Shown piece after piece: positions 1,260-55,279 of a DNA stretch of 64,000 nucleotides; within the stretch, counting starts at the first letter, position 1; each line of letters begins with the position of its first letter. The notes below the pieces were generated by a model. The model ran no database searches and was not told where the DNA came from. It worked only from the letters and a program-made list of their open reading frames with translations. The translations under genes were made by a program, and so were the position numbers. The DNA is from Rhododendron vialii (taxonomy: Eukaryota; Streptophyta; Magnoliopsida; Ericales; Ericaceae). The DNA is taken from NCBI RefSeq assembly GCF_030253575.1, contig NC_080569.1, forward strand, positions 6,738,001 to 6,802,000. Reading direction: 5' to 3'.

Positions 1260-1465
1260 AAAGTACAGTAGAAACTAGAAAGACACAAAAAAAGGTAGGG
1301 CCAAATGTACAAAGCCTTACTGCTCTCCCTTGTAAACCATCAGCCCAATTATTGGGATTATTTTTATTGGTGAAATGGGATTATTGTGTAGTTATATTTA
1401 GGTGTAACGAAATCGTGATTCCAACTCATTTGGGGAGAAAATGTACCCTTTTGTAAGCAGCTAGC

Positions 1466-1745
1466 CGTGCTACTCACACATATTTGTTGCACGATTTTTT
1501 TCGGAGCTCACACAAATAATTTGATTTCGTTCATTAGTTTTGAAATATTTTTTTGAGTGACCCTGTAAAAAATCAGCCCAATATGACCCACTTACATATA
1601 TCTTATTGAGCTGGATTTTTATGGGATTGCTCAGAAAAATATCTTTAGATTAATGAACGGATCGGATAATTTATGTGGGATCCTAAAGTGAGCCTCCCAA
1701 AAAAAATTGTGCACAAATCTGTGGAAAAAATATGTGCCATCAATG
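1466..1745. mobile_element. MITE family A, diverged copy
   Basis: An imperfect inverted repeat whose arms carry the family blocks CACACAAATAAT, CGTTCATTA, CTGTAAAAAATCAGC and their complements (GATTAATGAACGGATCGG, ATTTATGTGGGATCC). The same ordered blocks recur in the well-preserved copy at 29399-29789 and the weaker one at 49006-49390. No coding capacity. Confidence 0.6.
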
Positions 1746-1820
1746 TTTTCGTTTTGTAAATGAGTTGGAGTGAAAGAAAGAAAAGGAAAGAAAAGGAAAG
1801 GAAATTGACACCGTTTCCCA

Positions 1821-2631
1821 GGACACGGGGGCTCTGCTGTCCAAAGGGCGCAACAGCCCCTACCCAGACCACTAAAACGGCAACGTTTTGGTTAAAAAAA
1901 AAATATTTACCATCAATTTGCAATTCTATGGAATAGAAACGTGATTATGAGAGCCTTAGAGACAAAATTTGATTATGTCTCTTCAGAATAATATGATCAG
2001 AATAATAAGATCTTCACACCAGTTCAAACGAATTAAAAATTGGAGTACTTAATTTTTTAACTATATTTTTTAATATATAAATGGTCCCAAAGAATTAAAT
2101 ACTCAAAATTTCACTCCGTTTTAAATCAGTACAAAGATTTTCTTATTCTTATCATAGTATTCTAAAGGGTCATAATTAATTTTTGTTTATAGAGCTCTCA
2201 TAATCACATTTCTGCTCCATAAGGTCCTAAATAAATAACATATACCTAATATGAGAGCCCTAGATATAACAATAAATTACAACCCTTTAGAATAATATGA
2301 TAAGAATAACAAGATCTTTGCACCGATTCAAACGGAGTGAAAACTTGAGCACTTAATTTTTTTGAGACCGTTTATATATTAAAAAATATGGTTAAAAAAT
2401 TAAGTATTCTAATTTTTAATCCGTTTGAATGGATGTGAAGATCTTATTATTCTGATCATATTATTCTAAAGAGACATAATCAAATTTTGTCTCTAAGGCT
2501 CTCATAATCACGTTTCTGCTCCATAAGATTGCAAATTGATGGTAAGTATTTTTTTTAAAACCAAAACGTTGCCGTTTGAGTGGTCTGGGTAGGGGCTGCT
2601 GCGCCCTTTGGGCAGCAGAGCCCCCGCGTCC
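1821..2631. mobile_element. Foldback element, nested palindrome
   Basis: An 811-bp element that is almost entirely a palindrome. The outer termini are GC-rich inverted repeats (GGACACGGGGGCTCTGCTG at the left, its complement at the right), followed by AAAACGGCAACGTTTTGG on each side. Inside lie two consecutive roughly 300-bp units bounded by GAAACGTGATTATGAGAGCC and GGCTCTCATAATCACGTTTC, and each unit is itself an inverted repeat. Flanks share GTTTCC, a possible degraded target duplication. The same GC-rich terminus bounds the element at 29212-30756. Non-coding. Confidence 0.75.
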
Positions 2632-5402
2632 GTTTCCTGAGATGCAGATTCTTTTAGGCCCCGTTTTGTCAAGATTTTTATTTTTTAAGTACTTACTTTC
2701 CGTTTTACGAGACAGATCATTTTCTCACAATATATCACATTCGATTCAAAAAATAAGTTTTTATTTTCCTTAGCAGAACGCGGCCTTACAGGATGTATAT
2801 TCTACTCGGGGTACGAATTCTTTTCCCATTCTTTCCCTCATATCCCCCACCCCAAAGGGCCCAAACCAATATTGCAACGGCCAGTATTGAAAACTGTCCA
2901 TTTCAAAGGGGCCCAAAGCCCAACCAAGCAATCACTGGTCCCGTACGTCAATCCATTGTGCATTAGTATTCTCTTAGAGAGAGCTAAAACCCAAACAACA
3001 GGCCCATTGCTACCCTGCAGGTAAAATTTCATGCCAACATTGCAGTTATTGTGTTATTTTTTTCCCCAGACCTAATGTACAAGTAAAACTACAAAAAGTC
3101 CTATTTTTTTGCAGTGTCGAATATAATTTCGAAGAACATTGGATGGTTATTGTGAAGTTCTATTGCACGAGTCCCTCGTAGCTTTCTGCATTTGAATTTT
3201 TATCTGTTTCCATTCTTAGTTTTATGAAGTTACATCGACATAAAATTAGTGAAATGTGCATCCAAAACTTTCTCCTTGGTTGGAAAATAGGGTTGAAGGG
3301 ATAACTTTTAACACTATATGATAGCTCAAATAATGGTTGCTATTATAATGAAACTTTCACACGCAAATAAGGGTTTGCATCATGACATACCTTTTCATTT
3401 ACTTCCAAGAATTGAGCTAAATTAACGAATCACAAAGTTGAAAATAGTAACATATATACCTGATATTTGAGGTTAGGTAAAATAGGCTTAAGGCCACATG
3501 GCACGGAGTAGGAGACAACATGAGCTGGAGTTTGTCTAGTACAATATGATTAGTGGGCCGCTAAAAGATCATTTGCAATAACCAAAAGTTTACGTCCACT
3601 GCTCAACATTCATCCCTCATCCTATTGTTCTCAATTTCACCGTCCAAAAGTATTTTAGATGGTTCGGATTTTAAAAGACTATTCCAGGGAAAAGTTTAAC
3701 TCTTTTGGAAGAGTCTTTCATGGAGGAGTTTTTTTTAAATTTGAACCATTGATTGCCGAGACTGACGGTGAGATGTTGAGCGGTGGGCATAGCACCGCTA
3801 CTGCAATAATTAGTTTCATTTGCTAGTATATTTTGGGCCCACAACTTTTATTTAAACGGTCATTTTGAAAACCTCCCTCAAAAGATTATTCATGCAAAAA
3901 TTAGCTTCAAGAAAGGGGAGGGGCTTGTATGGAACGGAATCTAAAAGCATCTCTAACGCGCAAATCTTTATTTTGAAGAATGAAAATATTTCTTACTCAA
4001 GCAGTTTATATAGAGAACATAAATATTCATACACACTGCAACCTAAATTCTTCGTTATCGATCATCTCAATCTAATTTTCAAAAAAAAACTTTCATTAAT
4101 TTCTCTTCAAAATTAAACTGAAAGCGAAATACCCTACGAACTAACGGGTCCAGTGGGACTATCGGGTCCTTTTATCATCTCCATACGCATTTCTTTTCCT
4201 TTTTTTTTTTTTTTTTTTAAAGAATTATTGAAGAGATGGAATCTTAGTTCTTTCGGCCATAAGGCCCATTTCAATGCGTTCCATACTACTATCTTATTAT
4301 CCAAATGGTATGTATATTGAACTTGTTTATCCCTTTGTGCTGTAATTTACATTTGACTTCATTCATGGTTTCCATATTATTTATTTTGGTATCAGTACTA
4401 TTTTTTTTTCCCTATGTGAAATATGCATGCGACAGCATGCTGTCGTTGACATTTTTCATTCCCTCCCATACAAGTTGATAAGAACAAAGAGATGCAGAAT
4501 ATATATATCATGCATGCCCACGTCAATTCAGAAGAGAATATTCAGTGCTGCGTTATTCACAGCCGTTCATACCGAAAATAACACCAATTAATAATTGAAT
4601 GTATCCAAGCTCGGATTGTTTAGTTTGACCGACAAAAATAACATTTTATTATTAAGGGAAAGAGGATTCCAACCAAAAGTTGGAAAATACAGATGGGACA
4701 AAACCCAATACATCTGATGGCCTAAAAAGCCCAGAGAGTACAAATAAAGCTCGAAAACCCAGAGCGTTGATCTTGTTAACAAGCTCCAATTATTAACCTC
4801 TCCAGAATTTCATATAGCTTGGATTATTAATGTTAGCAATTTTCTGTTGGTGGGCTAACATAGATCATAAAATTAAATATTAGTACATGTTGCCGAATAA
4901 GGCTTGAGTAATGTCGGTATTACCCATTAGTTGTGATCGTTCAATTAATGTGACTTGGTAATAGACACATATTTATTAGCACGTATTTGGGTCATATCAC
5001 GTGCGTTAAGCGGTACGGGCTTATTTTATATATGTGTATAGACCAATTAAAAAGGGCCCAATATGATTCCATCTATTATGATGGGCTATGATGAAATCAT
5101 GTCTTATAAATATGTGGTTAAGGTCTCCCCTCCAAATCCCAACATCTTTTTCATACGTCCCATCTTTGTGTGAGACATAAGGTCAGGACAAGAGAACACT
5201 AAGGTTTTCATCCTCCACGGCATACAACAGGTACGCATCCAGTATAATTTTTCTTCAATGATTTGACATGGTATCTTGGGTTTAGGGTTTCTTTATGAAA
5301 TCCTACATATTAAACATAAACGTGATGAATTTTGCATGCAGTACAAACTATTCGATCCAATCCCACATAAAAACTTCATTTGATCAGGAAATTAAAAAGA
5401 TA
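2632..5402. other. Intergenic, no gene seen
   Basis: About 2.8 kb of AT-rich sequence. A short inverted-repeat fragment at about 2655-2788 (AGGCCCCGTTTTG against GAACGCGGCCTTA) and a poly-T run near 4200 are visible. Short ORFs here have no domain or coding character. Confidence 0.5.
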
Positions 5403-8439: not shown

Positions 8440-10170
8440 ATGCCGGAGATCGAACATGTACCGACCGCCGCCGCCACAACGAGAATGGACAACAGCAACG
8501 GTTTGTTCGGCAAGTATGAGCTCGGGAAACTCCTCGGCTGCGGCGCCTTCGCCAAGGTGTACCACGCCAGGAACATAGCCACCGGCCAGAGCGTCGCCGT
8601 CAAGGTTATCAACAAGAATAAGATTGCCGGCACCAATTTGATGTCTAATGTCAAACGCGAGATCTCCATCATGAGCCGGTTGCGCCACCCCCACATCGTC
8701 AAGCTCTTCGAGGTATATATGATTCTTGGTTTAAAGTTTTCGAATGCACAATTCATCATTTCCATTACCTACTGTTTTGGAGTTTGACCTACTAATACTA
8801 TGAAATTCAAATACATCCGTACTCTTCTGTTAACTGAATTCTAAAATAATAAAAAAAAATCTACAAAAAAAAAAAAAAAAAAGAACGGACGGAAGATACA
8901 AGAAGAATTTTTTATTTCTCGAAAAGAGCAGATGTTGGAACTTTGGTTAAAATTAATGAATCGTTAAAAATAATTGATTAAATTTCCAACTTTTTTTTTT
9001 TTGTAATTTGTGGGAATTATTATACTACCCATCCCTACAATTGTTCATCTACTGATTCTTATCCATGTCAAAGTTTAATATGTCCAATGATTTTAATAAT
9101 TGCGCCTCTTAATCAGCCTCCTCTTATGATCTGAATTTTTACAGGTACTCGCCACCAAGACCAAGATATACTTCGTAATGGAGTTTGTAAAAGGCGGCGA
9201 GCTCTTCGCTAAAGTCGCCAAGGGGCGCTTCAGCGAAGATCTCAGCCGTAAATATTTTCAGCAATTGATTTCTGCCGTCGGGTACTGCCACTCCCGCGGC
9301 GTCTTCCACCGCGACTTGAAGCCAGAAAACCTTCTCCTCGACGAGAACGGTGACTTAAAGGTGTCCGACTTCGGGCTCAGCGCCGTGACGGACCAAGTCC
9401 GCCACGACGGCTTGTTGCACACGCTCTGCGGCACGCCTGCTTACGTGGCCCCCGAGATTCTCGCGAAGAAAGGGTACGATGGGGCGAAGGTGGACGTGTG
9501 GTCATGCGGAGTCATCCTGTTTGTTTTGACGGCTGGTTATTTGCCCTTCAACGACCCCAATCTTATGATGATGTACAAGAAGATCTACAAAGGAGAATTC
9601 CGGTGTCCCAAATGGATGTCGTCTGATCTCAAACGGTTCCTCTCTCGTCTCCTGGATACGAATCCCGCGACGAGAATAACTGTTGATGAGATTATACGGC
9701 ACCCATGGTTCAAAAAGAACTACAAAGAGATTAACTTTTACGAGGAAGAATTATTCGATGAAAAGATCGAGAAAGAAGACGGGTGTGATGGGACACTAAA
9801 CGCGTTTGACCTGATATCGTTCTCGTCCGGGTTGAATCTGTCCGGGCTCTTCGATAACTCGGCCGACGCGGTCGACAACGAGCGGCTCGTGTTGGCCGAG
9901 TCGCCCGAGAGAGTCATCGAGAAAGTTGAGAATATTGTGAAGGTTGGGAACGTTGGTAGGTTGAAGAGGAAGAAGGAATGGGGGTTGGAGTTGGAAGGGC
10001 TGAATGGTAATTTGGTGATGGCCTTGGAGGTTTACCGGTTGACTGACGATTTGGTAGTTGTGGAGATTAGGTGGAAAGCGGGGAGTGCCGGTTTGTACAA
10101 CGAGGTGTGGACGAATAAAATCAAGCCGGAGCTCATTTCCTCACCGGGAGCCCCGGTTCCCGGTAGCTGA
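8440..10170 (+). CDS. CIPK11: CBL-interacting protein kinase (CIPK11-like, SnRK3)
   Basis: Serine/threonine kinase of the SnRK3/CIPK family, activated by calcium-bound CBL sensors and acting on ion transport and stress responses. Exons are 8440-8712 and 9145-10170, with a 432-bp GT-AG intron between codons, giving 432 aa, the usual family length. Visible: glycine loop ([10 protein letters not shown], 31-40), ATP-binding Lys55, HRDLKPEN with Asp147, DFG at 166-168, the [15 protein letters not shown] activation segment, and the CBL-binding NAF motif at 310-312 followed by a C-terminal regulatory domain. The MPEIE start matches my recollection of Arabidopsis CIPK11, as does the [19 protein letters not shown] stretch. 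Relatives in this clade are usually intronless, so the intron is unusual. Family certain; ortholog number from memory. Confidence 0.93.
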
Positions 10171-12579: not shown

Positions 12580-12584
12580 TATAA

Positions 12585-12998
12585 TGTTGTGCCGAACACG
12601 AAATTGAGAATACAACAAATCAACAAGCGATAAACAAGAACACAATGATATACGTGGTTCCGTTCAAGCACAAAGCAAGAACGTACTCCACGGGGAAAAG
12701 AGCAAGAGGATTCACTATAAACGGGGAGAGAAACAAAGAGCCGGCTATACCCGTAACTCTACTTGAAGCACCAAACAGATATCTAGGGACAAATCTCTGG
12801 TGGAACCCAAAAGGGAGACACAAACCCTTGGTGGAACCCTAAGAGCATAAACAAAATCCTAATATCTAAGCCCTTGAACAAAAGACCATAACCCTAGGAA
12901 CCCCCAAGGTCCCTATTTATAGGAAAACACTAAATAAACCTAAACCAAATAGGAAAAGGAATCCTAGTCAATTTAGGAATTCTAGTCAATTTCCAACA
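12585..12998 (-). repeat. 3' LTR of the Copia TR-GAG element
   Basis: Direct repeat of 14628-15041. It contains TATAAATA on the minus strand (in CCTATAAATAGGGACC), the likely LTR promoter core. Confidence 0.93.
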
Positions 12999-13094
12999 AA
13001 TCTCCACCTTGACTTGAATTCCATCGAATTCAACACTATAGGCAATCCTCTCCTTTAATCGCTCATCTCCCCCAAAAGCCCCCCCACGGGGCCA

Positions 13095-14552
13095 TCACCA
13101 ACGGCACAAACGAGTAAGGCTCAAGCACACCTGCTTGACCTTGTAAACGCGACTCAGGAAACCCAGCCGCACATGCCTCCAAATTGAGCCTCTATCTTCC
13201 AACGGGCACCTCCCACCCAACGCATCCCTCCCGAATGCACTCGAAGATCTGCTCAAACTCCACACGGAGTTAATTACCGACTCTACCACAGAGTTAAAAA
13301 CCCAACACTGAGTCAACCTCGAATTCACCGATGAAGAACCCAAAGATGTAGCACCCACAATCGTACTACCATCAAGCACATAGAGGTTATTCGATTTCCG
13401 ACCCTTCATCAAAACACGAGCACCCTTCAAAACCCTCAAGACTCCACCTTCAGCGGTATGCTTCCAACCCAAAGAGTCAAGAGTACCCAAAGAGATAAGG
13501 TTCCTCTTCAAATTTGGTATATGTCGAACACCAAACAACGTCCTCACAAACCCATCATGCATTCTGACTTTAATTGTTCCAATCCCAACAATTCTACAGG
13601 ACATGTTATTCCCCATAAGAACTGTACCACAGCTGACCGATTCATAAGTATCGAACCAATCTTTATTCGGACACATGTGGTAAGAACATCCGGAGTCCAG
13701 AATCCATTCGTTATTCGAACAGACATCACCGACACTCACAGAAAGAACCATAAGTGAATCGTCGGAATCTTCTTCAACAATACCAGCAACAACCTTCTCT
13801 TCAAAATTATCCTTATTTTTCAACCTAGGACAATTTCTCACCATGTGCCCATATTTCCTACAGTAAAAACACTTTACTTCCTGATTTGTGGAACGAGAGC
13901 CAGAAACCCCTCTACTGCCATAATCCCTCTCAGAAGTTCTTCCTTGCACCATCAAACCCTGAGCATCAAAATCACCACCCTCACCGGATACTTTTTTCCT
14001 CAATTCTTTCGAATACAAACTAGACTTAACGTCCTCCATGGAAATCGTATCCCTCCCGTAAAGTAGGGTAGTAACAAAATGCTCATAAGATGCAGGCAAA
14101 GAACATAACACAATAAGGGCTTGATCTTCATCATCAATCACAACATCAATATTTTTTAAATCCATAATAATTCGATTTAACTCATCTAGATGGTCTTTTA
14201 CGGGCGTACCTTCCCTCATACGAAACGTATAAAGGCGCTGCTTCAAATACAACCGGTTGGTAAGAGACTTCGTCATATAGATGCTTTCCAACTTCAACCA
14301 AATACCGGCAGTAGTATCCTCCTCCCCGACCTCGCGAAGCACATCATCGGCTAAACACAACTGAATCGAACTGAGCGCCTTCGCATCGAGATCCTCAAAC
14401 ACACTATCCTGCATATCAGCAGGCTTCTTCAATTTTCCTAACAAAGTCTTGTGTAATCCTTGTTGAACAAGCAAAGCCTTCATCTTAATACGCCATAAAC
14501 TGAAGCTAGTGCTCTGCCCATCGAACTTCGCAATTTCGAAACGAGTCGCCAT
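13095..14552 (-). CDS. Copia-type Gag with protease-like motif
   Basis: A single 485-codon ORF with no internal stops. The start (MATRFEIAKF) follows the LTR and primer site; an in-frame ATG at 14714 lies in the LTR and is unlikely to be used. Order of parts: Gag region at about 1-210 with YLKQRLYTFRMREG and LCSLPASYEHF motifs, a CCHC zinc knuckle (CFYCRKYGHMVRNC), a retropepsin-like DSGCS active-site motif, then a Gag-pre-integrase segment (NLISLGTLDSLGW to NNLYVLDG). After that the protein runs into about 80 unfamiliar residues and stops; integrase and reverse transcriptase are absent. It would package element RNA in virus-like particles. It may be translated, as the frame is intact. Confidence 0.88.
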   Translation of the reverse strand: MATRFEIAKFDGQSTSFSLWRIKMKALLVQQGLHKTLLGKLKKPADMQDSVFEDLDAKALSSIQLCLADDVLREVGEEDTTAGIWLKLESIYMTKSLTNRLYLKQRLYTFRMREGTPVKDHLDELNRIIMDLKNIDVVIDDEDQALIVLCSLPASYEHFVTTLLYGRDTISMEDVKSSLYSKELRKKVSGEGGDFDAQGLMVQGRTSERDYGSRGVSGSRSTNQEVKCFYCRKYGHMVRNCPRLKNKDNFEEKVVAGIVEEDSDDSLMVLSVSVGDVCSNNEWILDSGCSYHMCPNKDWFDTYESVSCGTVLMGNNMSCRIVGIGTIKVRMHDGFVRTLFGVRHIPNLKRNLISLGTLDSLGWKHTAEGGVLRVLKGARVLMKGRKSNNLYVLDGSTIVGATSLGSSSVNSRLTQCWVFNSVVESVINSVWSLSRSSSAFGRDALGGRCPLEDRGSIWRHVRLGFLSRVYKVKQVCLSLTRLCRW

Positions 14553-14627
14553 TGAAACGATCACCAATTGCACAATACGCAACAGAAAACAAAAGCCTCG
14601 GATTGAAACCTGGCTTTGATACCAATT

Positions 14628-15041
14628 TGTTGTGCCGAACACGAAATTGAGAATATAACAAATCAACAAGCGATAAACAAGAACACAATGATATACGTGG
14701 TTCCGTTCAAGCACAAAGCAAGAACGTACTCCACGGGAAAAAGAGCAAGAGGATTCACTATAAACGGGGAGAGAAACAAAGAGCCGGCTATACCCGTAAC
14801 TCTACTTGAAGCACCAAACAGATATCTAGGGACAAATCTCTGGTGGAACCCAAAAGGGAGACACAAACCCTTGGTGGAACCCTAAGAGCATAAACAAAAC
14901 CCTAATATCTAAGCCCTTGAACAAAAGACCATAACCCTAGGAACCCCCAAGGTCCCTATTTATAGGAAAACACTAAATAAACCTAAACCAAATAGGAAAA
15001 GGAATCCTAGTCAATTTAGGAATTCTAGTCAATTTCCAACA
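14628..15041 (-). repeat. 5' LTR of the Copia TR-GAG element
   Basis: 414 bp, same as 12585-12998 except for three transitions. As the 5' LTR of a minus-strand element it should drive transcription of the Gag ORF. Confidence 0.93.
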
Positions 15042-15046
15042 TATAA

Positions 15047-16804
15047 AACTATCGACTTTGATGGGAATAGCTAGGAGACATTGCGGCTACTTAAAGAATA
15101 AGAGATATATTGCGATTGTCATCGCGAATGAGTATGAAATATATCACCATCTTGGAAAACCAACAATTTGTAAATTGATGTCATTATGAGTTTTAAAACC
15201 CTACTACCTATTTTTTGTTCAATTTTTACAAATATTGAATATAAGCAGCAGAAAATATGAATGTGAGTTTTGGGGTTCTTTTACAAATTAATAATAAGAG
15301 AGTATAAAGAACATTACAGTCAGTTTTGAAATGGAGATAGAAGCCGAATACCATGTTGGCATATTTACAACAAAAATAGACTAAAATTGGATTAATACCC
15401 AACTACTTTCTGTGCCTTTCACTTCAAAACCTAAGACATCATTATGTTCATGGAATACATTCATCTTAAAAGGGTGAGAGGTCGTCCACTGTCTACAACA
15501 CCCGAAGTTATGGTTTTCAAAAACTTCATATATGTTAATTTTTTTCCTCTCGACAAAATGAGAAATTTATTAATCTTTAAAAATGAATTACAAAGACTAA
15601 ATGGACTCAAGGCAAGACTGCGAACAGCCACCAAAGACCCAAAGGCAAAAATAACAAGACTCTACGAGGGTGGCAAGAAATTAATCAACCAAAGCAAAGA
15701 ACAAAGACACCCACAACCTCTGCTCCAGCTCCAGTACAAAATAGACTAAAAACTCCCCAAAAAAAAAAAAAAAAACAGCAGCAACACAAAACAAAAACAG
15801 CACCGGAAAAGCCCCTCGATCACTTTGAACCAGATAGGATGGAGAGAAAGCTACAGCATCAACTTAAAAAAAAATAAACCATCATCAACACTAACAGAGA
15901 ACTGACCCTGAGTTAAAGCTTGCGTTGCGGTCGCTTTAGGCCTCCAAAAAAAAATTGAATTTTAGGGGCCCCTCCAACTTTTTTACTCCTTATAATAATC
16001 CAACAAAATGACCTCATTCTTTTATTTTAGCTTTAAGCCTCTGAAAAATCAGGACCGGCTCTGCATACTAAATAAGTGTAATTAAGCACTTGAAGTTTTT
16101 TACTAGTACCTTCAATGGTCGAAGTATACCTGTTTTTTTAGTAAAGAAAAAGGAGGGTGCGACTTCTTAGCCACATTAATAGGGGTCAAACCATAACTGA
16201 GGGCTCCATTGCCTTTCATCTAAAGCAAGTGTTAAGCACTTGAAGTTTTTTAGTACCTCCAATGGTCGAAGTTTTTTTCCCTTTTTAGGTCTCCCTCCTT
16301 ATCCTACACCTACTTTGATATCAACACTAACATAAAAAATTATGTTTGAAAGTTTGTCACCAAAAGGGAAGCAAATACTCTAGGAGGGAGAAAGAAAGAA
16401 AATCCAAAGAAGTGAACGAAATAATCTTTCCACTTTGGATATAACGATTATTTGTACGTAATGCCCTCTCGCATGTGAAACACTAAATGCCAAGAAGATT
16501 CACAACTGGCTAATAAGTTAGTCGTTGGGATAATTACCGCGGAAATCAAGAAATGACAGAGTTATAAATACGTAAGAGTGAGAGAAGGTCGGCCCTGTAC
16601 ATTTTTCTGTGGGCCTTGTAATTTTTATTCAACCATGCATGGGACAATGGTCTTATGCACCAAGTTTTGCAGTAACTCCACTACTAATTAAATTACTCAC
16701 AATCTCATGATCACGTGAGGATTTCGAAATATATGAATCTTGAATCATGAATGAGTAGTAATTGGAAGTGACTATGTACATTTGTATAATTGTGTGTGTA
16801 TAAG
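15047..16804. other. Intergenic, no gene seen
   Basis: No coding sequence recognised. A roughly 40-bp segment (AGCACTTGAAGTTTTTTA... to ...AATGGTCGAAGT) occurs twice in direct orientation near 16084-16123 and 16232-16270. An A-rich tract lies at 15758-15790. Confidence 0.45.
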
Positions 16805-17167
16805 CTTCTAATAAGAGCGCTCTTACCGTATTACGGTAAGGGCTTTCCATTTTCTTCTCTTTTCCGACCGAATTTTGATGATCCGAGCCGCTCAATGTGT
16901 ACAAAACGTGATTTTAAAGGTACCCGGAAGAAATCAGCAAAAAAAAGGACTGGAAAAGGCTTGATTTGAGTAGTTTTTATTTGAACCGTTCGATAAAATA
17001 CAAACAAAAACTGCTCAGATCAAGCATTTTTCGGTCTTTTTTTTGCTAATTTCTCGCGACTACTCTTAAAATCACATTTTAAACACATTGAGCGGCTCGG
17101 ATCATCTCAAATTGGTTGGAAAAGGGACGTCCTTACCGTAATACGGTAAGGGCGCCCTTATTAGAAG
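16805..17167. mobile_element. Inverted-repeat MITE with palindromic tips
   Basis: A 363-bp foldback: the left arm from CTTCTAATAAGAGCGC is mirrored by the right arm ending GCGCCCTTATTAGAAG, with roughly 85% arm match by eye (GATGATCCGAGCCGCTCAA and its complement are shared). Each tip contains a small palindrome, CTTACCGTATTACGGTAAG. No coding capacity; no clear target duplication. Confidence 0.75.
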
Positions 17168-17864
17168 TTTTGTGTGTATATATATATATACAAACCTTAG
17201 GTGCAAAAAAATCCTTCACCAATATTTTCTATGACTAAAATATTTATTTTTATTGACTTTTATTTTTACTTGTTCAATTCATCTCGATCGACTGCAGAAC
17301 ACCATAGCTACTCCGCAATTTTCCCCATTTTTTTTAACATAATAATACAGTACTATATGTGTTTGTTGTTCAAAAAGTCAATATATATCTAGCTGCAATT
17401 AGAATTAGTCACACGTGGGCAGCTTTGAAAGAGCTGGCATAATTCTCTCTAATTCCCAGTTTTTTTTCCCTGGGCTGTCCGGGTCAATTTATGCGTATCT
17501 TAACTAATTCACCATCCAGTCTAGTCAAAGGCAAATCAATCCACGATGAGACTAAAATTCACAAAAGAAATTACTTTTCAATGGTCTAATCTCATAATCA
17601 AACCCTGATCAATTTTGCACCAACCAAGGAACCAGATGAGCTAATTTCCTCTCTCTTCTCTCTATCCATTCAAAGCCGTACTAATATTAATATCAAAAGT
17701 CCTGTACCCTTTCCTTTCATATCTCTTAGCAATTAAAAAAGTAATCGCTGACCTACTTTTCTTAACTTGTTATATTACCTTGCCTTTTAAGCACTCTTTC
17801 CCCTCCTTTCTGATTCTCCTTTCCTTCTTCTCCCACCTCTTCAACTCCATAGTAGCATGCCTGG
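17168..17864. other. Upstream region of LBD15
   Basis: Probable promoter and leader of the LOB-domain gene. A fragment at about 17466-17515 (TGTCCGGGTCAATTTATGCG) resembles the tail of the SINE family at 38782 and 60912. TA repeats lie at 17175-17190. I cannot fix a TATA box. Confidence 0.45.
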
Positions 17865-19560
17865 ATGTCCAGAGAAAGGTAATTACCTGTTTTTCTCCAT
17901 TTTAATTTCGTAGAAGATTCATGCAATTAGAACCCCCCCTCCCCTTTTTTTTTTTTTCTTTAGTTATTTTAGTTTTGTTATTTGTTGACTTTTTGTTGGC
18001 CGGAATTGGTTTAGGGAGAGGTTTGATGAGATAGGAAGGAGGATTAATAAGAGAGAGAGGGATGCATCGATAATAACATCTCAACAAATGGGAATTAATG
18101 GAAGCAATGTTTTGGGGACGACGAACTCGTTGACGAACACAATAACACCTTGTGCGGCGTGTAAGCTGTTGAGGAGAAGATGCGCGGAAGACTGCCCTTT
18201 CTCTCCCTATTTCTCACCACTTGAACCCTACCGATTTGCCGCCGTTCACAGAGTCTTCGGTGCCAGCAACGTCTCCAAGATGCTCATGGTATATATAAAT
18301 TTCCTAGATTCTAAGCAATCGTTATCGTTTTGTGTTTCAGAATTTCAGAAATAATTTTAGGAGAGAGCTTTTTAGAACACAAACGCTCCTCATTTTGAGG
18401 ATGTTTTTGGCTTCTTTTGAGAATTTAGAAGCTTGGGGTTCTTTTCGCTGTTTTGAAAGTCGTTCTATATCATACATAAAAGAAATCCTCAAGAATAAGA
18501 TTCAAAATCTATCGACAGAACAGGTTCAAATAAGGATTACAAAAAAAAAAACCCTAATCTAATTCATAGCCGCGGCCTAGCTCTTTTATCCAAAAAGTTG
18601 AAGTGCGACCAAAATACGATTTATGGGATGAATATAAAAGCGGTGGTCATCGACCAAGACCATTTACTGTTTTTTTCCAATTTCTTGTCTAGCAGACTAG
18701 TGCAAGATATTAACTTTAAAGTGAATAGAGAAATTAACATGGTATCTATCTGCCATTGAGTTTAGAAGAGTGCAAGAAATGAATATTACTAGTACATAGG
18801 AAAATTTGCTTCTGATTTTGCTACTACTCTTTAGTACTCCTTCCGTCCCAATTTGTTTGTACACTTTTTGACTTTTAAGTGTCCCAAAATATTTGTCCAA
18901 TATGAGTTTGACTTGTTAAAATTTCCTTAATGCCCTTTCTCTTTCAAAAAATAATGTATTGGAGAATGTCCACTCCCATTTAATGCTAGGAAATTGAGGG
19001 GTATTCTTGAAAAATCAAAACTCTTAAAGAGCAATCATTATGTTCCCTTAAAAAGTTGATTTTTTAAAAATGGACAAACAAATCGGGACGGAGGGAGTAT
19101 TTTTTTTCATGGGTATTAATGTTAATTAGTGCTGTATAATTAGGAGGTACCCGAGAGCAAAAGAACGGACACCGCGAATAGTTTGGTTTACGAAGCAAAT
19201 GTGAGGCTCAGGGACCCTGTGTACGGATGCATGGGTGCAATCTCAGCTCTACAGCAAGAGGTTGATTTGTTTCAAGCAGAACTTAATGCAACGAGGACTG
19301 AGATATTGAGATACAGATATAGAGAAGCTGCTAACAACAACAATGTTATCGCTAGCGTCGGCGCTTCCAGTAGTACTCCTCATGCTCCTAGTTTAGTCTC
19401 GACCGAGGCTGCTCCCGCGTCTCCTCCTCCTCCAGTACTACTGCCGCCTCCACCGTCTGTTATGGTTTCTTCTTCTTCTTTGTACACGTCCCCGGCAACT
19501 ATTGCAATGGTATATAACCACATTCCGAGTAATATTAGCGTCCCATATGATCTTGACTAG
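17865..19560 (+). CDS. LBD15: LOB-domain transcription factor (LBD15-like)
   Basis: Plant-specific class I LOB-domain DNA-binding protein, nuclear. Exons are 17865-17878, 18015-18288 and 19144-19560 with GT-AG introns (234 aa). The first exon is 14 nt and codes MSRE plus two bases of Arg5; it is supported because the spliced N-terminus MSRERERFDEIGRRINK closely resembles my recollection of Arabidopsis LBD15. A start at 18088 (Met30) would lose this conserved part. Domains: C-block CX2CX6CX3C (PCAACKLLRRRCAEDC, 50-65), GAS block (FAAVHRVFGASNVSKML, 79-95), DPVYG (about 120), a leucine-zipper-like segment, then a Ser/Pro-rich tail. The family works in organ boundaries and vascular or secondary-wall regulation. 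Intron 2 hosts a Stowaway-like MITE. An out-of-frame ATG at 17857 lies 8 nt upstream of the start. Confidence 0.92.
18835..19099. mobile_element. Stowaway-like MITE in LBD15 intron 2
   Basis: A 265-bp element bounded by TACTCCTTCCGTCCC and GGGACGGAGGGAGTA, with TA at both borders. This terminus is typical of plant Tc1/mariner-derived MITEs. It ends 44 bp before the exon-3 acceptor. Confidence 0.88.
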
Positions 19561-19970
19561 AGAGAGGATATATATATAAGTAGATTTTGTAAACCTATTG
19601 GGTCTCTCGTTTAGTCTTCGCGTTGTTTGGATTCAACTCCATTTGAAGGCCGAGAAAGTCGTTTAATTTCTTTAACATTTTCTCGACAGCCAAACGGAGC
19701 AGTACTACAACTTCAAAGCACTTCTTTGGATAGTTTGTTTCTATTTAATTACAGTAATTTGTTGGTTATTTCCTCTCTTACCTATATATGTTAGATATTC
19801 TTGTTAAGACAGTTACTATAAGTACTATTGCTTATGTTCAATGAGTCCCACATTACACAATGTGTCCTTAATTCTTAAGGGTACTTTTGGGTCTGTATTT
19901 GAATTTTAAGAATTGTAGGTCGTTCCGTTGAATATTGAACTCTTTGAAGTACCCAAAAAAATACTGGTAA

Positions 19971-20211
19971 TACTCCCTCCGTCCTTTTTTTGACTTTTCA
20001 TTGTTCTAAAATGTTTGTCCATTTTGAAAAGATCTGGAAAGAAAATTCTAAAAAAATACCATTTTACCCTTCTTTCTTAATTTGAAGTGACATCTAAAAT
20101 TTGAATTGAAGGAGATTTGTGGAAAGTCAAACTTTTTAAATTGTAATGATTATATTCCTTCACTAAATAAGTTGAATTTTAATTTTCAAATAAATTGGGA
20201 CGATGAGAGTA
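19971..20211. mobile_element. Stowaway-like MITE
   Basis: Bounded by TACTCCCTCCGTCC and GGGACGATGAGAGTA, 241 bp, about 400 bp after the LBD15 stop. The same family as the copy inside LBD15 intron 2; the right end is diverged. Confidence 0.75.
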
Positions 20212-20431
20212 ACAAAGTAATGCAAAGATCATTATAGTATGTGGTGGATAATTGGTGGTTGTGAATTCGTATACACTTCTACTATTTGAGATTCCAAAGA
20301 TCATTGAAGATTGCCCATCGCTTGAATGCTGTAACATGAATTCTTATTTTTCACCTCTTGCATTTTCACCTGTTTATTCGAGATAATGATTCCAAAATGG
20401 TCTGGCCGTAACATTTTTTGTACTAGTTCAT

Positions 20432-20829
20432 TGACGCAGCGGAATTCACGAAAGACTAATTAGCGTATTAGTTCAAACGAGATAAACAACTCGTCGCAAC
20501 GAGCAATTCTTGCGCACAAGAAAGAAAGAGAGAATCTCTGAATATTATTAATAAAAAGCTTAAAAGTTTTTAATAATTGAATAACTTACACCCCTATTTA
20601 TACTAGTAGGAGTCCTATACTAGTAGGAGTCCTAACAATAAGATAATTACTTAAAATGGAGACCAAGCAAAACAATACTTGTAAAGTTGTAAACAAAGAC
20701 TAACAAAATTAAAAGACTAATAGGAATATACCTAAACAAATGGCATTAAAAGGGGAATTCCTAAAACGAATAATTCCTAGAATAAAGTTTCCTTAATATT
20801 GAAATTTTCTAAATTTTTGTTCTACATCA
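20432..20829 (-). repeat. 3' LTR of the Gypsy TR-GAG element
   Basis: Matches 22112-22482 with substitutions plus a short duplication of TACTAGTAGGAGTCCTA. It contains TATAAATA on the minus strand. Confidence 0.9.
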
Positions 20830-20879
20830 GTCTCATTTTCTTCAAAAGAACTCGACCTCAAGTTCTCATTAGGAATCTG

Positions 20880-22076
20880 TCATCTTCCATGCCAAAGAAA
20901 CAGGTACTTAGAATACTTCAACTCATTTCTTATCTTGAAATAAAACTTCAAGAAAAAGTGTATTTGCAAAGATTGTTTCTCAGCATGCCTTAACTTGTTG
21001 ACAAGATTCACTAGATGAATGTTGGGAACCCAATCAAATTGTTGCACTCCAAGAAAATCTACAACTAGAACCTTATGTTGAAGTTGCTGGTTCTCTAGAC
21101 TTTGATTTATTATAGAGTTGGTTGGCACTCCTTTGTTAGAAAATCGAATTTCAGCAATAACCATATTTTCTTGTAATGTTGTAGTCAACTCCATTGTGGA
21201 TGATTCATCAAGCCCAAACGCACAAACCTCCAATGCAATATTCTTTTGTTCCTTTGCAACCGCATCGGAAACAATTTCAGTATCCTTTTGCACACAAGTA
21301 TCGATGTTAATTTCGTCTTGACCTTCAACTTCAATTTTGACCTCTCCCACGGCTTCTACAATAATTTGTTCTGCATGATACTGTTTTGGCCTATATTTTT
21401 CCTCCAACAATTTCTCATAATTCCTTGGTAAAAATCTCTCCATCATATATTTTTTAATTCTGTACCATGCATAAATTCGACGCTTGCCCAATCGATCTTT
21501 TAGAAATTGCATATCTAGCCACCATCGTAGCGCTGGTCCCGTAAGCTTCACTAACAAATACCTTCACATTTGTTCTGTTGGAATTTTTGCACACTCGAAG
21601 GAATCTTCGATGTTTAGAATCCAATCCAAATGATCTTCAAAAAATTAAAGACCACTAAATTTTGGCAAATTATCGTAATACCTGAAATTTGGTTGTCGCT
21701 GTATCGACTGATAAGCATTATGGTTCTCGAATAGCTCGCCTTCAAATTTATTCCTACTATCGTAATAATAATAAGAATATCCTCTGGAGACGTTATGGTG
21801 AATAGGTTGGTTGCGGAAAAATCCCTCAACGCGGTTCCTATTCTGGTTAGGAGGTTGGCGATGGGCAAATCCCAATGCGCAATCCTTCTCAACCCTTTCT
21901 GGCCTTTGGCGATTTTGTAGAGTCAACCCCTGCAACATCTCACGGATCTCAGCGAACTGAGTGTGGGTATCCTGACGGATCTCGGTCGACTGTGCTTGTT
22001 GATCCTCCACCATCTTCCTTAGGTCAGCAAGCCCACGACCAACGTCAATGGGTGTGTCTTCTTCTGTGTTTGGTGC
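20880..22076 (-). pseudogene. Gypsy-type Gag, broken by two stop codons
   Basis: Reads in one frame from MAPNTEEDTPIDVG (22076) to a stop at 20880, interrupted by TAA at 21645-21647 and TGA near 21564-21566. Between the stops the frame still reads Gag-like sequence (EDHLDWILNIEDSFECAKI), and after the second comes the conserved Gag core LTGPALRWWLDMQF and RFLPRNYEKLLEEKY. An Arg/Gln/Tyr-rich segment follows the N-terminus. No frame change is needed, so these are two nonsense substitutions in a Retrotrans_gag-type protein. It would have bound element RNA. No zinc knuckle is seen. The region after about 21360 on this strand is divergent and unassigned. Confidence 0.82.
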
Positions 22077-22111
22077 CATTGAACCAGACAAAGCCTTGCT
22101 CTGATACCACT

Positions 22112-22482
22112 TGACGCAGCAGAATTCACGAAAGACTAGTTAGCGTACTAGTCCAAACAAGATAAACAACTCGTCGCGACGAGCAATTCTTGTGCACAAG
22201 AAAGAAAGAGAATCTCTGAATATTATTCATAAAAAGCTTAAAAGCTTTTAATAATTGAATAACTTACACCCTTATTTGTACTAGTAGGAGTCCTAACAAT
22301 AAGGTAATTACTTAAAATGGAGACCAAGCAAAACAATACTTGTAAACAACCACTAACAAAATTAAAAGACTAATAGGAACATGCCTAAACAAGTGGTATT
22401 AAAAGGGGAATTCCTAAAACGAATAATTCCTATAATAAAGTTTCCATAAAATTGAAATTTCCTAAAATTTTGTCCTACATCA
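22112..22482 (-). repeat. 5' LTR of the Gypsy TR-GAG element
   Basis: 371 bp, partner of 20432-20829. Followed on the minus strand by the initiator-Met tRNA primer-binding site. Confidence 0.9.
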
Positions 22483-22487
22483 TTCAT

Positions 22488-29398: not shown

Positions 29399-29789
29399 CA
29401 GTAATGCTACACACACAGCATTTATGCACAGATTTTGTGCACAGATTTGTTGTGGGGCCCATTACGGGTCCCACACAAATAATCCGAGCCGTTCATTAAA
29501 TGTAAAACATTTTTTCAAGGGCCTCCACAAAAAATCAGCTCAATCCGATACCTATAAGTGCTTGATTTAATCATCTAACTTTTCATTATTCTGAAATTTG
29601 AATGAAAAGTTAACTGATTGAATCGAGCATCTGTAAGTATCGGATTGAGCTGATTTTTCATGGAGGCCCTTGAAAAAATGTTTTACATTTAATGAACGGC
29701 TCGGATTATTTGTGTGGGACCCGTAGTGGGCCCCATAACAAATCTGTGCACAAAATTTGTGCATAAATGCTGTGTGTGTAGCATTACTG
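29399..29789. mobile_element. MITE family A, best copy
   Basis: A 391-bp near-perfect foldback bounded by CAGTAATGCTACACACACAGC and its complement. Arms match over nearly their full length, so this copy is young. Both flanks are T-runs, so the target duplication is ambiguous. It lies inside the larger foldback element at 29212-30756. Confidence 0.88.
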
Positions 29790-33491: not shown

Positions 33492-35316
33492 TCATGTGGT
33501 CGCAGATTGGGATAGTAACCTGGGGTGGTTATGCTCCCCTTCGTAAGTAACAATTAGCATCGCCGGGTCCTCCAAGCACCTCTCCACATGTTTCCTTGCG
33601 GGGCAACCCCTCATGCTGCTACACTTATAGTATCCCCTGCAATATGAGGACTTCTGTAAGCCACACAATTCATACATATGTATAACGAAAACCATCAGGT
33701 TAATGGTGAAGAATTGGTGGCTTAAACACATGAGGATTACAATAGCAAGGACAATGGCTTTACCTTGATTCTCGATATGGCACCCAATATGAAGGAAAAA
33801 TAAAAATCTTACAAGCAACAGGAGAATAAAAGTTTTTGAAATGTTTGAAGAATTAAATCCCTCTCCCCTGCGGGGCTAGTAACCAAAATTAAGTTATGAA
33901 TCATTTATCTCAAAGCACTACTTCCCTAGCTTAAATTTGTTCTCTCAATGACAAAGCACATGGTAACTTCAAATAGTGGTTCGAGAACCTTCACACTGCC
34001 AGAAAGGAAGTGTAAAAAATACATCCCAAAAGCAGCCAACAAATTTTAACTACAACGACTGCAGTCCTGCACTATAAAGACCCGAGAAGCAGAAAGAAAA
34101 TACAGTATGGGGCATGTGTGTGTAGTTGCCTCATGGGAGGGTAGTTCTGTTGGTTACAGGGGTACGGTTGTTAGATTATATGATCAAAACACTCACTGCC
34201 ATTTGAAAAAAAAGGCATGCATCTCACAAACACCAAATAGAAACTATAATCATTGCTCCTAAACTAGTCACATGACTCACATCACATACAACTAGAAATT
34301 TAATACCTAGGGTGTGGAGAGCCCTTAATTGGCTTCTGCCCATACTTCCTCCACGAATACTCATCGGGAGGAATATCCGCAAGCTTGTTACTGATAGCAG
34401 GTACCTTGATTGATCTCTTCACCCTATGTTTCCTGTCAAGATAATGCAACAACCGGAACGATTACAAGCTATAAATGGCTGAGGCACTTAATAACTAACA
34501 TAAACAAATCCAATCAAAGTTGAACCTTTTCTTTGAACAGTGGCATCGACCACTACTCCCACATTTCACGCTCCCATCATCTCCCCTTGCAGAGCATCTT
34601 CTCTTATGTTGGTGAGAAATCTGGTCAGAAGAGCCAGCTGCACCAACTAAATGGAAGCCATTCCCATCCAAATTAGCAACACTACTCCCATCTATGCTCA
34701 ATGAGGAGATAAAAGATCTAGTCGATGACATGGTAGGTGTGCACGTAGAGCTATCGAAATTCAGATTAATGCCGCTATTGTTGTTGCTTCGACGGAACAT
34801 CATTTCTGCTTGTTGCTTCAACTTTTGCTGCTGCTGAAGCTGGATCATGTGCTGTTGCTTCTGCTGCATCTGAAGCTGGAGGAAATTACGGTAGTTCTGC
34901 GGTGTTTGCTGAACAATTTGCAGAGGGTTTTTCTCACCATCCACACATGGGGTTCCCAATGTAAGAGAGCTTTTAACACTTGAACCCATCATTTCTTGAA
35001 ATGGGTTTTCAAGGGAAGTCCTCTGCTGTAGAAACTGAATAGGTTTTGGTTGATGATCTGTTGTTTTGCTCGTTGGGTTCTCTAAGAGGAGGCCTGGGGG
35101 GAAAGAGTTTTGAGTTTTCTTGAACTTTCTTACTCTAGCATGACCCAATCCAGTGTTGAGAAGTGAAACAACTCTCTTAAACCTGAATACAGCCTCCCCT
35201 GTTTCTACCATTAAATCCCTAAGCTGAATCTGATCTTTTTGGGGCTGAGATAAAAGCTTAAGAACTCTATGGCTACACTCTACTGCTGCTCTATTAGCTT
35301 CTTCAACCTCCTCCAT
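33492..35316 (-). CDS. Group IId WRKY transcription factor
   Basis: Nuclear DNA-binding protein that recognises W-box promoters; group IId members bind calmodulin and act mainly in defence and stress. Exons are 34526-35316, 34307-34432 and 33492-33636 on the minus strand, 353 aa, GT-AG introns of 93 and 670 bp. The intron splitting the WRKY domain falls inside the Arg codon before GYYKC, the position typical of groups IIc-e and III. Features: calmodulin-binding/HARF-type segment ([21 protein letters not shown], about 49-69), Gln-rich tract at about 145-170, basic pre-domain region ([19 protein letters not shown]), WRKYGQK at 291-297, and the zinc finger C311-X5-C317-X23-H341-X-H343. The start [13 protein letters not shown] and the C-motif suggest the WRKY21/39/74 branch, from memory. 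All key residues are intact. Confidence 0.95.
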
Positions 35317-49005: not shown

Positions 49006-49390
49006 CAGTCCTGCTACACATACAGCAATTTGTGAATAAATTGTGCATAGATTTTGTTGTGGGGCCGACTACGGAACTCATACAAATCATCCGAGCCGTT
49101 CATTAAATGTAAAATATTTTTTCAAGAGTCCCTGTAAAAAGTAAGCTCAATTCAATTCCTATAGTTGTTTCATCCAACCATCTAAATTTTTATTCAGATT
49201 TTCGGATAATGAAAAGTTATATGATTTGATCGAGTATCTATAGGTATCAGATTGAGATTATTTTTTACGAGAACCCTTGAAAAAATATTTTATATTTAAT
49301 GAACGGCTCAGATAATTTGTGTGAAATTCATGATGGGCTCTACAATAAAACTGTGCACAGATTGTAGGTATGTGTAGACTTTCTGTGTAG
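49006..49390. mobile_element. MITE family A, older copy
   Basis: Shares ordered blocks with 29399-29789 (CTGCTACACA, GTTGTGGGGCC, CCGAGCCGTTCATTAAATG, TTAATGAACGGCTC) but arms are diverged. It lies about 400 bp upstream of the GAUT6 start codon, so may lie in its promoter. Confidence 0.75.
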
Positions 49391-52700: not shown

Positions 52701-55279
52701 TCTTCCCTTTTCTTTTTTTGTTGGTAAACCTTTTTTCTCCCCCTTCAAATTCGCGTTTTTCTCATATTGGATAACAATTTTATGCCCCGAGATGGGTACT
52801 TGGGAGATCCCACCTACCTAGATAAGCTGATCAAGGTAAAGGGACGCATTGTGTTTCTTAGTTCTTCATATAGCTATAATGAAATGCCCCTTGACTATTA
52901 AATTTGATGGTGCTAGACCTAAGTTGGATTAGTTGGGGTCATCAACGATGTATAACTGGGTAACTGAGTGCCATTGACATGTCTACTGCTTGGTCTAATT
53001 GCCCACCATCTCATCTAAGAAACTGTTAACTTTTCAGTGCTTTGCAGAGGATGAGAGCCATGGAGGCTACCTTGTCAAAAGCCAGCTGTGTGTATACGGA
53101 CTGCCCCGCCATGGCCACAAAACTCCGTTCTATGACCCACAATACAGAGGAACGGGCCCGTACACTGAAGAATCAAGTTGCATTTCTTCTTCAGCTAGCT
53201 GGAAGGACAACCCCCAAAGGCCTGCATTGCCTGTCCATGCAGTTGACCACTGAATACTTTGCCCTGCAGCCCAAGGAGCAGGAGTACCCTAATCAACAGA
53301 AAATGCTTGATCCCGACCTCTATCACTTTGCTGTTTTCTCTGACAATGTTTTGGCTTGTGCTGTGGTTGTGAACTCGACGATTTCCACCTCCAGGGTAAG
53401 CTTCCTGAGGTTTATTTGTTGCCATATAATGTCTAGAGCATACTTCAGAGCGTTCTCTTCTATTCCAGATATCATTTCACCCATGTATAGCTCTCACATC
53501 AGCTTCAGATTTTTCCTTTAGATATGAACCTATAGTTTGATGTGTCAATGGTGTCGATGTAACTGGAAAGCAATATGATTAGGTGATGAGATGAAGGGAC
53601 TGGACTGAACATTTGACACAAGTCGAATTATTTCTGATGACAATGAATGTCGGAACATGCACATTGCAGCAATTAGGTTTGTTCGTGAAACCTAAATATA
53701 CAAAAAGTAGAAAGTCCCTAGTTGCCCTGTGCCATCACATGTTAGCTAATAGCATGAGAATTGCAAGTGAACTGTTTGATAATCTATATGGACACGTGTT
53801 GTTAAGTCTTTCTTAAAGCAAAGTTTGTACATGCTGATGACACATTGAGTTCTGAACAATCTTTGCTTTGCAGGAACCAGAGAAGATAGTCTTTCACGTA
53901 GTGACGGATTCTCTAAACCTCCCAGCAATTTCGATGTGGTTCTTATTAAACCCTCCTGGTAAATCTGCAATGCAGATCCAGAGCATAGACTCTTTTGAAT
54001 GGTTGTCAGTGAGGTACAATGTAACACTGGAGAAGCAGAACTCCCATGACCTAAGATACACCTCTGCACTGAACCACCTTCGTTTCTATCTGCCAGACAT
54101 GTTCCCTAATCTGAATAAGATCTTGCTACTTGACCATGATGTGGTAGTACAAAGGGATTTGACACAACTTTGGAGCGTCAATATGAAGGGGAAAGTAAAT
54201 GGAGCAGTGGAGACTTGTCAGGAAGGTGAACCCTCATTCCGGCGGATGGATATGTTCGTGAACTTTTCAGACCCATCTATTGTAAATAGGTTTGATCGCA
54301 ATTCATGCACGTGGGCTTTTGGACTGAACGTGTTTGATCTTCAAGAGTGGAGGAGACGAAATCTAACTGGTGTCTACCACAAATATCTCCAATTGGTATA
54401 GTTCAATCTTCAAACCTTTTCTTATAAGTTACTCTCATGCTATCATTTACCCGCGGGATTCAAGCTATTTTTCTGTTGACTTGTCAGGCTAGACTGCGAG
54501 AGTACTCGCGTACAGTATTGTCAATTCTCGTTGGATCCTTTTGTATTTATGGAGATTATTTTCCGTGTTCCTAGATCTGACAATGTTTTTGTATGTCGTT
54601 GCTTTCTTATTGACACTTAGTTCACTCAAACGTTAACTTCCTCTCCTGCCCTCTAAAGAAAATACAATGAGATGTAGCGGAAGGGAATCGGAATTTGCGA
54701 TTAGTATGGGAGTACAGCTCCACCACGTTAGTTGCGTGGTACTTACAAAGTTGCGTTGCAGCTTTCATTTTTTGTAACCTGACATTTGATGTTTGATTCT
54801 GTTTCTCATATGTTGGGATGCTTTCGAGTCTAGGTTACATTCATTTTAGGTCATGGGTTTGTTCTTGCTCATTAATAGAACTCTACACATGGCTCTTTTT
54901 TGTCTTCTAATGGTGTAATATAGTTCATACGATTTCTCTTTTATAATGAGCAATTGAACACAAAGAAGTATGCTAACTACGGTTTCCATTGGGGTCGATG
55001 CAGGGATATGTAAGGCCGTTGTGGCTGGCAGGTAGTTTGCCGTTAGGTTGGGTTACCTTCTACAACTACACAGTGGGTTTGGACAGGACGTGGCATGTAC
55101 TTGGGTTAGGTTATGAATCCGGTGTCAGGAGGGGAGACATTGAACAAGCAGCAGTGATACACTTCGACGGGCTTATGAAGCCTTGGTTGGATATTGGGCT
55201 TGAGATATACAAGGAATACTGGAGGAAACATGTCAACTATGAAAGCCACTTTCTCCAACAGTGCAATATACATCCATAA
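49792..55279 (+). CDS. GAUT6: GAUT6-like alpha-1,4-galacturonosyltransferase (GT8)
   Basis: Golgi type II membrane enzyme of family GT8, related to the GAUT1 homogalacturonan synthase; it would add galacturonic acid from UDP-GalA to pectin. Nine exons: 49792-49900, 50019-50053, 50736-50777, 50863-51010, 51097-51155, 51373-51605, 53038-53395, 53874-54395 and 55004-55279, all GT-AG, giving 593 aa. Exons of 35, 42 and 59 nt are joined by phase and by resemblance to recalled Arabidopsis GAUT6 (KYRTDALKLTAIEK, KAYLKFAPPTSNSQLVREL). A signal anchor spans about 9-28. Catalytic features: LLLDHDVVVQRD with the DxD at 415-417, LPLGW at 514-518, and HFDGLMKPW from His555. The stem region (60-170) is variable. 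Introns host a hAT-like MITE and a 620-bp element. The exact GAUT5/6 assignment is from memory. Confidence 0.94.
50109..50440. mobile_element. Candidate hAT-like MITE in GAUT6 intron 2
   Basis: TAGGGCGGATATGCGAACAAGC at the left is mirrored by GCTTGTTCAACATGTTTATC...ACCCCTA at the right. Flanks CACAACAA and CACAGAAT match at 5 of 8 positions, a possible decayed target duplication. The body shares GAGCTTG-type motifs with 37302-37640. Confidence 0.55.
51781..52416. mobile_element. hAT-like non-autonomous element in GAUT6 intron 6
   Basis: Ends CATAGTTGTCAAAGGCGAT and its inverted counterpart at TTGACACCTATG enclose 620 bp (51789-52408). A perfect 8-bp duplication, AGCCCTGT, flanks it at 51781-51788 and 52409-52416, the hAT signature. 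AGGCG-rich segments lie near both ends. No transposase. Confidence 0.85.

Follow-up and report, generated by a model that had tools for sequence, protein, structure and literature searches.

The window analysed here is a stretch of 64,000 nucleotides from Rhododendron vialii (C13:6738001–6802000, on NC_080569.1; the assembly comprises 13 contigs and 532.6 Mb). Two long terminal repeat (LTR) retrotransposons of this window, one from the Copia and one from the Gypsy superfamily, very probably belong to families devoid of polymerase (pol), of the TR-GAG or semi-autonomous kind, each of which would have been founded by a deletion and spread with the help of complete elements. Both carry paired LTRs, a primer binding site (PBS), a purine tract and a 5-bp target site duplication (TSD). 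Pol is absent from the copies that were read, copies with the same interior are repeated across the genome in each family, and the LTRs of many Copia copies are near-identical. Complete relatives with long open frames are also present and share cis sites with these families. Both families probably spread in a parasitic or semi-autonomous manner.

Structure of the two elements

As originally predicted, the two elements belong to different superfamilies, lie on the minus strand within 10 kb of each other and lack reverse transcriptase (RT) and integrase, no open reading frame (ORF) of their interiors (1.6 kb for Copia, 1.3 kb for Gypsy) having a match to either. Positions 12580 and 22487, the limits of that prediction, are the outermost TSD bases. 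The features by which TR-GAGs are recognized, namely paired LTRs with TSD, a PBS and a purine tract adjoining the LTRs, and the lack of RT and integrase, are found in both elements. Both primer sites start with TGGTATCA(G/A)AGC, in agreement with plant initiator tRNA-Met; a scan with a bacterial setting found no tRNA gene within the window.

The Copia-type element spans 12585–15041 (minus strand) from LTR to LTR and comprises the following features, some of which are described relative to L069, a locus carrying a pol-bearing relative.

12580–12584: left TSD, TATAA
12585–12998, minus strand: 3' LTR, 414 bp
12999–13010, minus strand: purine tract adjoining the 3' LTR; end of a stretch common to the pol-bearing L069
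13095–14552, minus strand: ORF of 485 amino acids (aa) without interruption; Retrotran_gag_2 capsid, zinc knuckle and Pol_BBD, then a tail little like L069
13143–13330, minus strand: site where about 2.7 kb of pol is absent relative to L069 (L069 positions 1377–4058)
14609–14624, minus strand: PBS, TGGTATCAAAGCCAGG
14628–15041, minus strand: 5' LTR, 414 bp, with 3 mismatches against the 3' LTR
15042–15046: right TSD, TATAA

The 485-aa ORF matches Retrotran_gag_2 (2e-38; positions 1–170 of 172), zf-CCHC and Pol_BBD, so it encodes Gag plus the segment of gag-pol that comes after Gag. The element had been described as Gag-only; the capsid and the zinc knuckle are indeed present without RT or integrase, but Pol_BBD is present as well. 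The full GAG in a single ORF that characterizes TR-GAGs is found here with this domain added.

The Gypsy-type element spans 20432–22482 (minus strand) from LTR to LTR.

20427–20431: left TSD, TTCAT
20432–20829, minus strand: 3' LTR, 398 bp
20709–22079, minus strand: stretch matching the ORF (456 codons) of L012, a sister copy, and reaching into the 3' LTR; stops at codons 145, 172, 400 and 429
20830–20847, minus strand: purine-rich tract adjoining the 3' LTR
22094–22109, minus strand: PBS, TGGTATCAGAGCAAGG
22112–22482, minus strand: 5' LTR, 371 bp, with 23 mismatches in 371 aligned positions against the 3' LTR
22483–22487: right TSD, TTCAT

The alignment of this copy to the 456-aa ORF of L012, which crosses the purine tract and enters the LTR, reveals four in-frame stops and no indel, which rules out a frameshift. 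Retrotrans_gag is matched weakly in the window copy (positions 5–54 of 97, E 0.02) and over positions 5–58, below the curated cut-off, in the intact ORF of L038, a member of a related subfamily; in the intact L012 ORF, no match to it was found at E≤0.1. No zinc knuckle match was found in the L012 and L038 ORFs, and the C-terminal part of the family's ORF has no Pfam counterpart. The window ORF piece, folded from one sequence, gave no usable model (mean pLDDT 33). With its four stops and partial capsid, and with no zinc knuckle in L012 or L038, the Gypsy element does not contain a full GAG in a single ORF. The claims that this element is Gag-only and that each of the two elements keeps Gag are not supported, as the Gypsy copy is broken and the open frames of its relatives include at most half of the capsid domain.

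Judged by LTR divergence (3 mismatches in 414 bp versus 23 in 371), the Copia insertion is much younger than the Gypsy insertion.

Amplification of both families without polymerase

When the Copia interior (1607 bases) was used as query, the best 40 of 310 candidates were scored, window included; all 40 places are 91–100% alike and 37 of them span all 1607 bases but at most two. At the protein level (best 88 of 2692 candidates scored), 48 rows, which correspond to 47 places, match the ORF at 83–100% aa identity. The longest frame among them has 594 aa (0/48 exceed this length) and 25 of the 48 have no stop in the matched part. Another 40 rows lie at 69–71% identity, and their frames reach or exceed 1000 aa in 34 cases; one copy at 68% identity has nine stops. 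An LTR pair about 2.04 kb apart was found in 26 of 30 fetched loci, the scan giving another repeat in the remaining four. The LTRs are at least 99% alike in 19 of the 30 loci (100% in seven), and the ORF is uninterrupted in 18 of the 30 copies read (window and L040–L068). Two pairs of Copia LTR-end/PBS places (C1:36405972/36408017 and C4:32037529/32039573), 2044–2045 bp apart, look like tandem copies with a common LTR.

The Gypsy interior query (best 40 of 267 candidates scored) retrieved 13 full-length interiors at 92–100% identity, window included, plus diverged subfamilies; the ORF is uninterrupted in three of these 13 close copies (L011, L012 and L014). Of 30 fetched loci, 26 have an LTR pair whose starts are separated by less than 2 kb, three have no pair and one has another repeat. 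The LTR-end/PBS pattern of this family occurs at 147 places and its reversed control at none. One hundred listed places were tallied using 121 RT rows (best 121 of 7476) and 150 gag rows (best 150 of 797). When gag was sought within 6 kb downstream, 68 sites have a gag-like match only, 18 RT only, one both and 13 neither; within 2 kb, the corresponding numbers are 61, 18, one and 20. The tally is identical with 44 or all 121 RT rows. One Gypsy site (C4:10163092) has both gag-like and RT matches downstream, which may reflect nesting, a tandem copy or recombination. Three other Gypsy LTR-end/PBS sites (C5:11081014, 11082658 and 11084302), 1644 bp apart on one strand, look like a short element repeated in tandem.

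The proposal that both families have been amplified, their listed copies being mostly without pol, is borne out by the absence of Copia frames beyond 594 aa (0/48) and by the short LTR-to-LTR unit found in 26/30 loci of each family. The opposite outcome, i.e. that most copies carry polymerase, had been named beforehand as decisive against the original interpretation, since the two elements would then simply be deletion derivatives; instead, the frames at the 47 Copia places do not exceed 594 aa and 61–68 of the 100 Gypsy sites are gag-like without RT, versus 18 with RT.

Candidate helper elements

The nearest pol-bearing family found for the Copia element, exemplified by L069, is about 70% alike in Gag and has a primer site and a purine tract like those of the window element. 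In L069, whose own frame is split, gag, Pol_BBD, gag_pre-integrs and RVT_2 are matched, along with a part of rve (below cut-off). The stretch from gag to Pol_BBD of the window element is 71% alike to L069 and a second aligned block covers the end of pol; the intervening 2.7 kb or so of L069 has no counterpart in the element. The stretch GGAATTCAAGTCAAGGTGGAGA preceding the 3' LTR is common to both, the start and end of the LTRs are similar by eye, not identical, and the LTR bodies are 69–75% alike over parts. The L069 family is large and close-knit: the best 130 of 3535 RT candidates that were scored are all 86–100% alike, many of them in frames of 1326–1343 aa.

In the case of the Gypsy family, an RT was read at all three sampled places without a gag match, the frame being broken in one of them (L072). 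A complete Gypsy element on C6 has matches to Retrotrans_gag, Ty3_capsid and zf-CCHC (L073), to RVT_1 and RNase H (L070) and to SH3_Tf2-1, together with a sub-threshold match to the integrase C-terminal domain (L074). The RTs of this candidate helper belong to one family, nine RT rows being 100% alike and six of them lying in frames of 1585–1586 aa. It has the same PBS as the pol-less Gypsy elements; the last 132 bp of the LTRs are 90–92% alike, the LTR tips are common to both (TGAT(G/A)TAG at the start and GCGTCA at the end), the start of Gag is 81% alike in DNA and the purine-tract motif is in the same frame. The features by which partners are matched in PMC11302176 (same PBS, same LTR termini and conserved second half of the LTR) are all found in this pair. 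The L070–L074 family is the likely helper of the Gypsy family.

Origin and spread of the two families

The following model can be drawn from these data. The founder of each family would most likely derive from a complete element that lost the interior of pol and, in the Gypsy line, part of gag as well. After this deletion, each founder would have multiplied on its own branch. The cycle would begin by LTR-driven transcription, the RNA would be packaged in particles, and a complete element whose LTR tips, PBS and purine tract match would then provide the RT and integrase for reverse transcription and integration. The Gag encoded by the pol-less elements may take part in this process.

The copies might instead be one-off derivatives, every one of them having been deleted separately from a complete element. 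The 2.7-kb gap of the Copia element relative to L069, both ends of which still align, agrees with a deletion, as does the end of the Gypsy-family ORF, which has the motif and the frame of the end of the helper's pol. One interior is however common to the copies (91–100% identity at the 40 scored Copia places; 92–100% in 13 full-length copies among the 40 scored Gypsy places), and pol is absent from the window-like copies that were found. Separate deletions are therefore rejected as the origin of the copies and very improbable as a general explanation; a deletion would still account for how each family was founded.

Several points weigh against helper-driven spread of the two families. Their movement is inferred from sequence, and the searches score the best candidates only. 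Among the 98 Copia LTR-end/PBS places, an RT lies downstream in 25 of the 56 with three mismatches versus none of the 42 with at most two, so that no pol-bearing element with the window-type LTR end was found among the scored RTs. These RTs are the best 130 of 3535, all 86–100% like L069, so that a helper less closely related would have escaped them. The search with the RVT_2 family (best 150 of 3477 candidates, 116 rows used) is uninformative: the two places that it gave within 12 kb lie at 5.5 and 9.2 kb, distances that differ from the one in L069. The L069 family is likely the Copia helper, unless a closer unseen family plays this role, and the helper's identity is unproven because no scored RT lies behind window-type LTR ends (0/42). 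The capsid core of the pol-less Gypsy family is only about 30% alike to that of its candidate helper, so the family did not arise from the sampled helper by a simple deletion in recent times. Finally, the tally, which covers 100 of the 147 Gypsy sites, leaves 13–20 of them without explanation. Founding deletions followed by amplification with complete elements as helpers nevertheless remain by far the best explanation.

Possible selection on Gag

Ratios of nonsynonymous (stops included) to synonymous changes were compared between changes shared by at least two copies and changes found in a single copy (two-sided, uncorrected p values). For the whole Copia ORF, these ratios are 47:25 for shared and 139:62 for singleton changes (p=0.56). 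The capsid, one of eight overlapping regions, gives 13:13 versus 61:26 (p=0.065), Pol_BBD gives 9:0 versus 26:12 (p=0.087), in the direction opposite to constraint, and the five further overlapping regions give p values of 0.58 to 1. The whole Gypsy ORF gives 48:27 versus 182:60 (p=0.075), with p=0.060, 1 and 0.18 for codons 1–150, 151–260 and 261–456, respectively. The ratio of nonsynonymous to synonymous substitution rates (dN/dS) was also estimated for Gypsy, from three overlapping pairs of two subfamilies (kappa 3, bootstrap intervals). It is 0.79–0.81 for the whole ORF, with an interval reaching 1 in two of the three pairs, 1.04–1.08 for codons 226–330 and 0.60–0.62 for codons 331–408, with intervals extending over 1. 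Only for the gag core (0.40–0.49) does the interval stay under 1 in each of the three pairs.

Of the original suggestion that Gag is under selection, there remains a hint in the Copia capsid and in the Gypsy ORF, whereas the whole Copia ORF gives none. Such selection is at best suggested by these values, and the capsid part may be under constraint. The ORFs might have been kept because the encoded Gag is needed, either through selection in cis or through mutualism in which the elements provide the helper with Gag. The p values of 0.065 (Copia capsid) and 0.075 (Gypsy ORF), the low dN/dS of the Gypsy gag core in three overlapping pairs and the uninterrupted ORF of 18/30 Copia copies would fit this proposal. 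It is at odds with the whole Copia ORF, with the excess of shared nonsynonymous changes in Pol_BBD and with the dN/dS of the Gypsy ORF outside the gag core. Furthermore, youth alone can explain intact young copies and the Gypsy helper has its own Gag with a zinc knuckle. A need for the encoded Gag is a tentative proposal, which we consider somewhat less probable than its contrary.

It is unlikely that the pol-less Gypsy lineage encodes an accessory particle protein of its own, in which half a capsid domain would be fused to the C-terminal part without Pfam counterpart. The end of the Gypsy query recurs at 34–60% identity in 43 rows, 32 of which have no stop in the matched stretch (counted by hand among the 150 listed of 186 rows), but codons 226–330 reveal no constraint and the intervals for codons 331–408 (0.60–0.62) extend over 1. 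If such a protein exists, pol-less elements would have long co-diversified with their helper while keeping a protein of new make-up.

Neighbouring gene and other features of the window

As predicted, a LOB-domain (LBD) gene with two exons lies between the two elements.

18088–19560, plus strand: LBD gene, exons at least 18088–18288 and 19147–19560, with PF03195 matches in both; outside both elements

The side-by-side placement of the two elements, which had been considered notable, does not stand out. Among the matches listed, and assuming a uniform spread, one pair of Copia and Gypsy family members is found within 10 kb (0.24 expected), one within 20 kb (0.48 expected) and four within 50 kb (1.21 expected). 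These counts agree with chance, and non-random pairing of the two families is rejected. The known exons of the LBD gene lie at most about 3 kb from both insertions, which might point to a regulatory effect or to an insertion preference; as a pair within 10 kb falls within chance expectation, it is extremely improbable that both insertions matter to this gene, which is regarded as a bystander.

Upstream of the LBD gene, nested inverted repeats (16802–17170; arms of 51 nt at 86% and 92 nt at 83%) resemble a small inverted-repeat transposon. Two near-palindromic inverted repeats (29399–29789 and 49052–49359), 19.6 kb apart, are about 79% alike, and another inverted repeat (1821–2631) has 279-nt arms that are 91% complementary. 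The window also contains a CIPK-like kinase ORF with Pkinase and NAF domains (9178–10170), an ORF with a match to glycosyl transferase family 8 (53868–54401) and, on the minus strand, an ORF (34495–35316) whose match to the plant zinc cluster (PF10533), a domain that occurs in some WRKY proteins, is slightly below cut-off.

Comparison with known systems

Both families are a further example of the TR-GAG or semi-autonomous arrangement already known from Arabidopsis, coffee and wheat. TR-GAGs have been reported from many plants (PMC8704663) and those of sunflower are transcribed (PMC9784723). In Arabidopsis, the TR-GAG AT5TE33540 of ATCOPIA63 has two LTRs and a single ORF for a 562-aa GAG, a similar complete element being present in the genome, and a new insertion of it was detected in ddm1 plants (PMC8704663). 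The Copia element described here likewise has two LTRs, one GAG ORF, no full protein set and a complete relative, but its ORF adds Pol_BBD and its movement is deduced from near-identical LTRs only.

In wheat, RLG_Sabrina_SA and RLG_WHAM (the latter with RLG_Wilma) are semi-autonomous GAG-Pro families with many copies that kept the protease part, lost RT and integrase and have few essential motifs in common with their helper (PMC9744471). The Copia element is similar to them in make-up, whereas these wheat families are Gypsy-type and far more numerous (PMC9744471). The non-autonomous centromeric retrotransposons of coffee include Gypsy TR-GAGs, and there too Gypsy-type pol-less elements occur alongside complete families; these elements belong to the centromeric CRM lineage and the likeness to the Gypsy family described here concerns the pol-less make-up and the presence of complete families (PMC5818461).

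A close parallel to the Gypsy family is RLG_Quinta of Einkorn wheat, which encodes GAG and a domain of unknown function without RT or integrase and for which the authors propose RLG_Cereba as driver (PMC11302176). Quinta and Cereba share the PBS, the LTR termini and the 3' half of the LTR, and their GAG is conserved in protein and hardly in DNA (PMC11302176). The Gypsy family resembles Quinta in these respects, but has at most half of the capsid domain by Pfam. One plant genome contains two independent pol-less families along with complete relatives as their possible drivers. With such sets, counts of changes over many copies can test why Gag is kept in elements without pol. The likeness of the Gypsy pair to Cereba and Quinta suggests that this arrangement is not peculiar to wheat.

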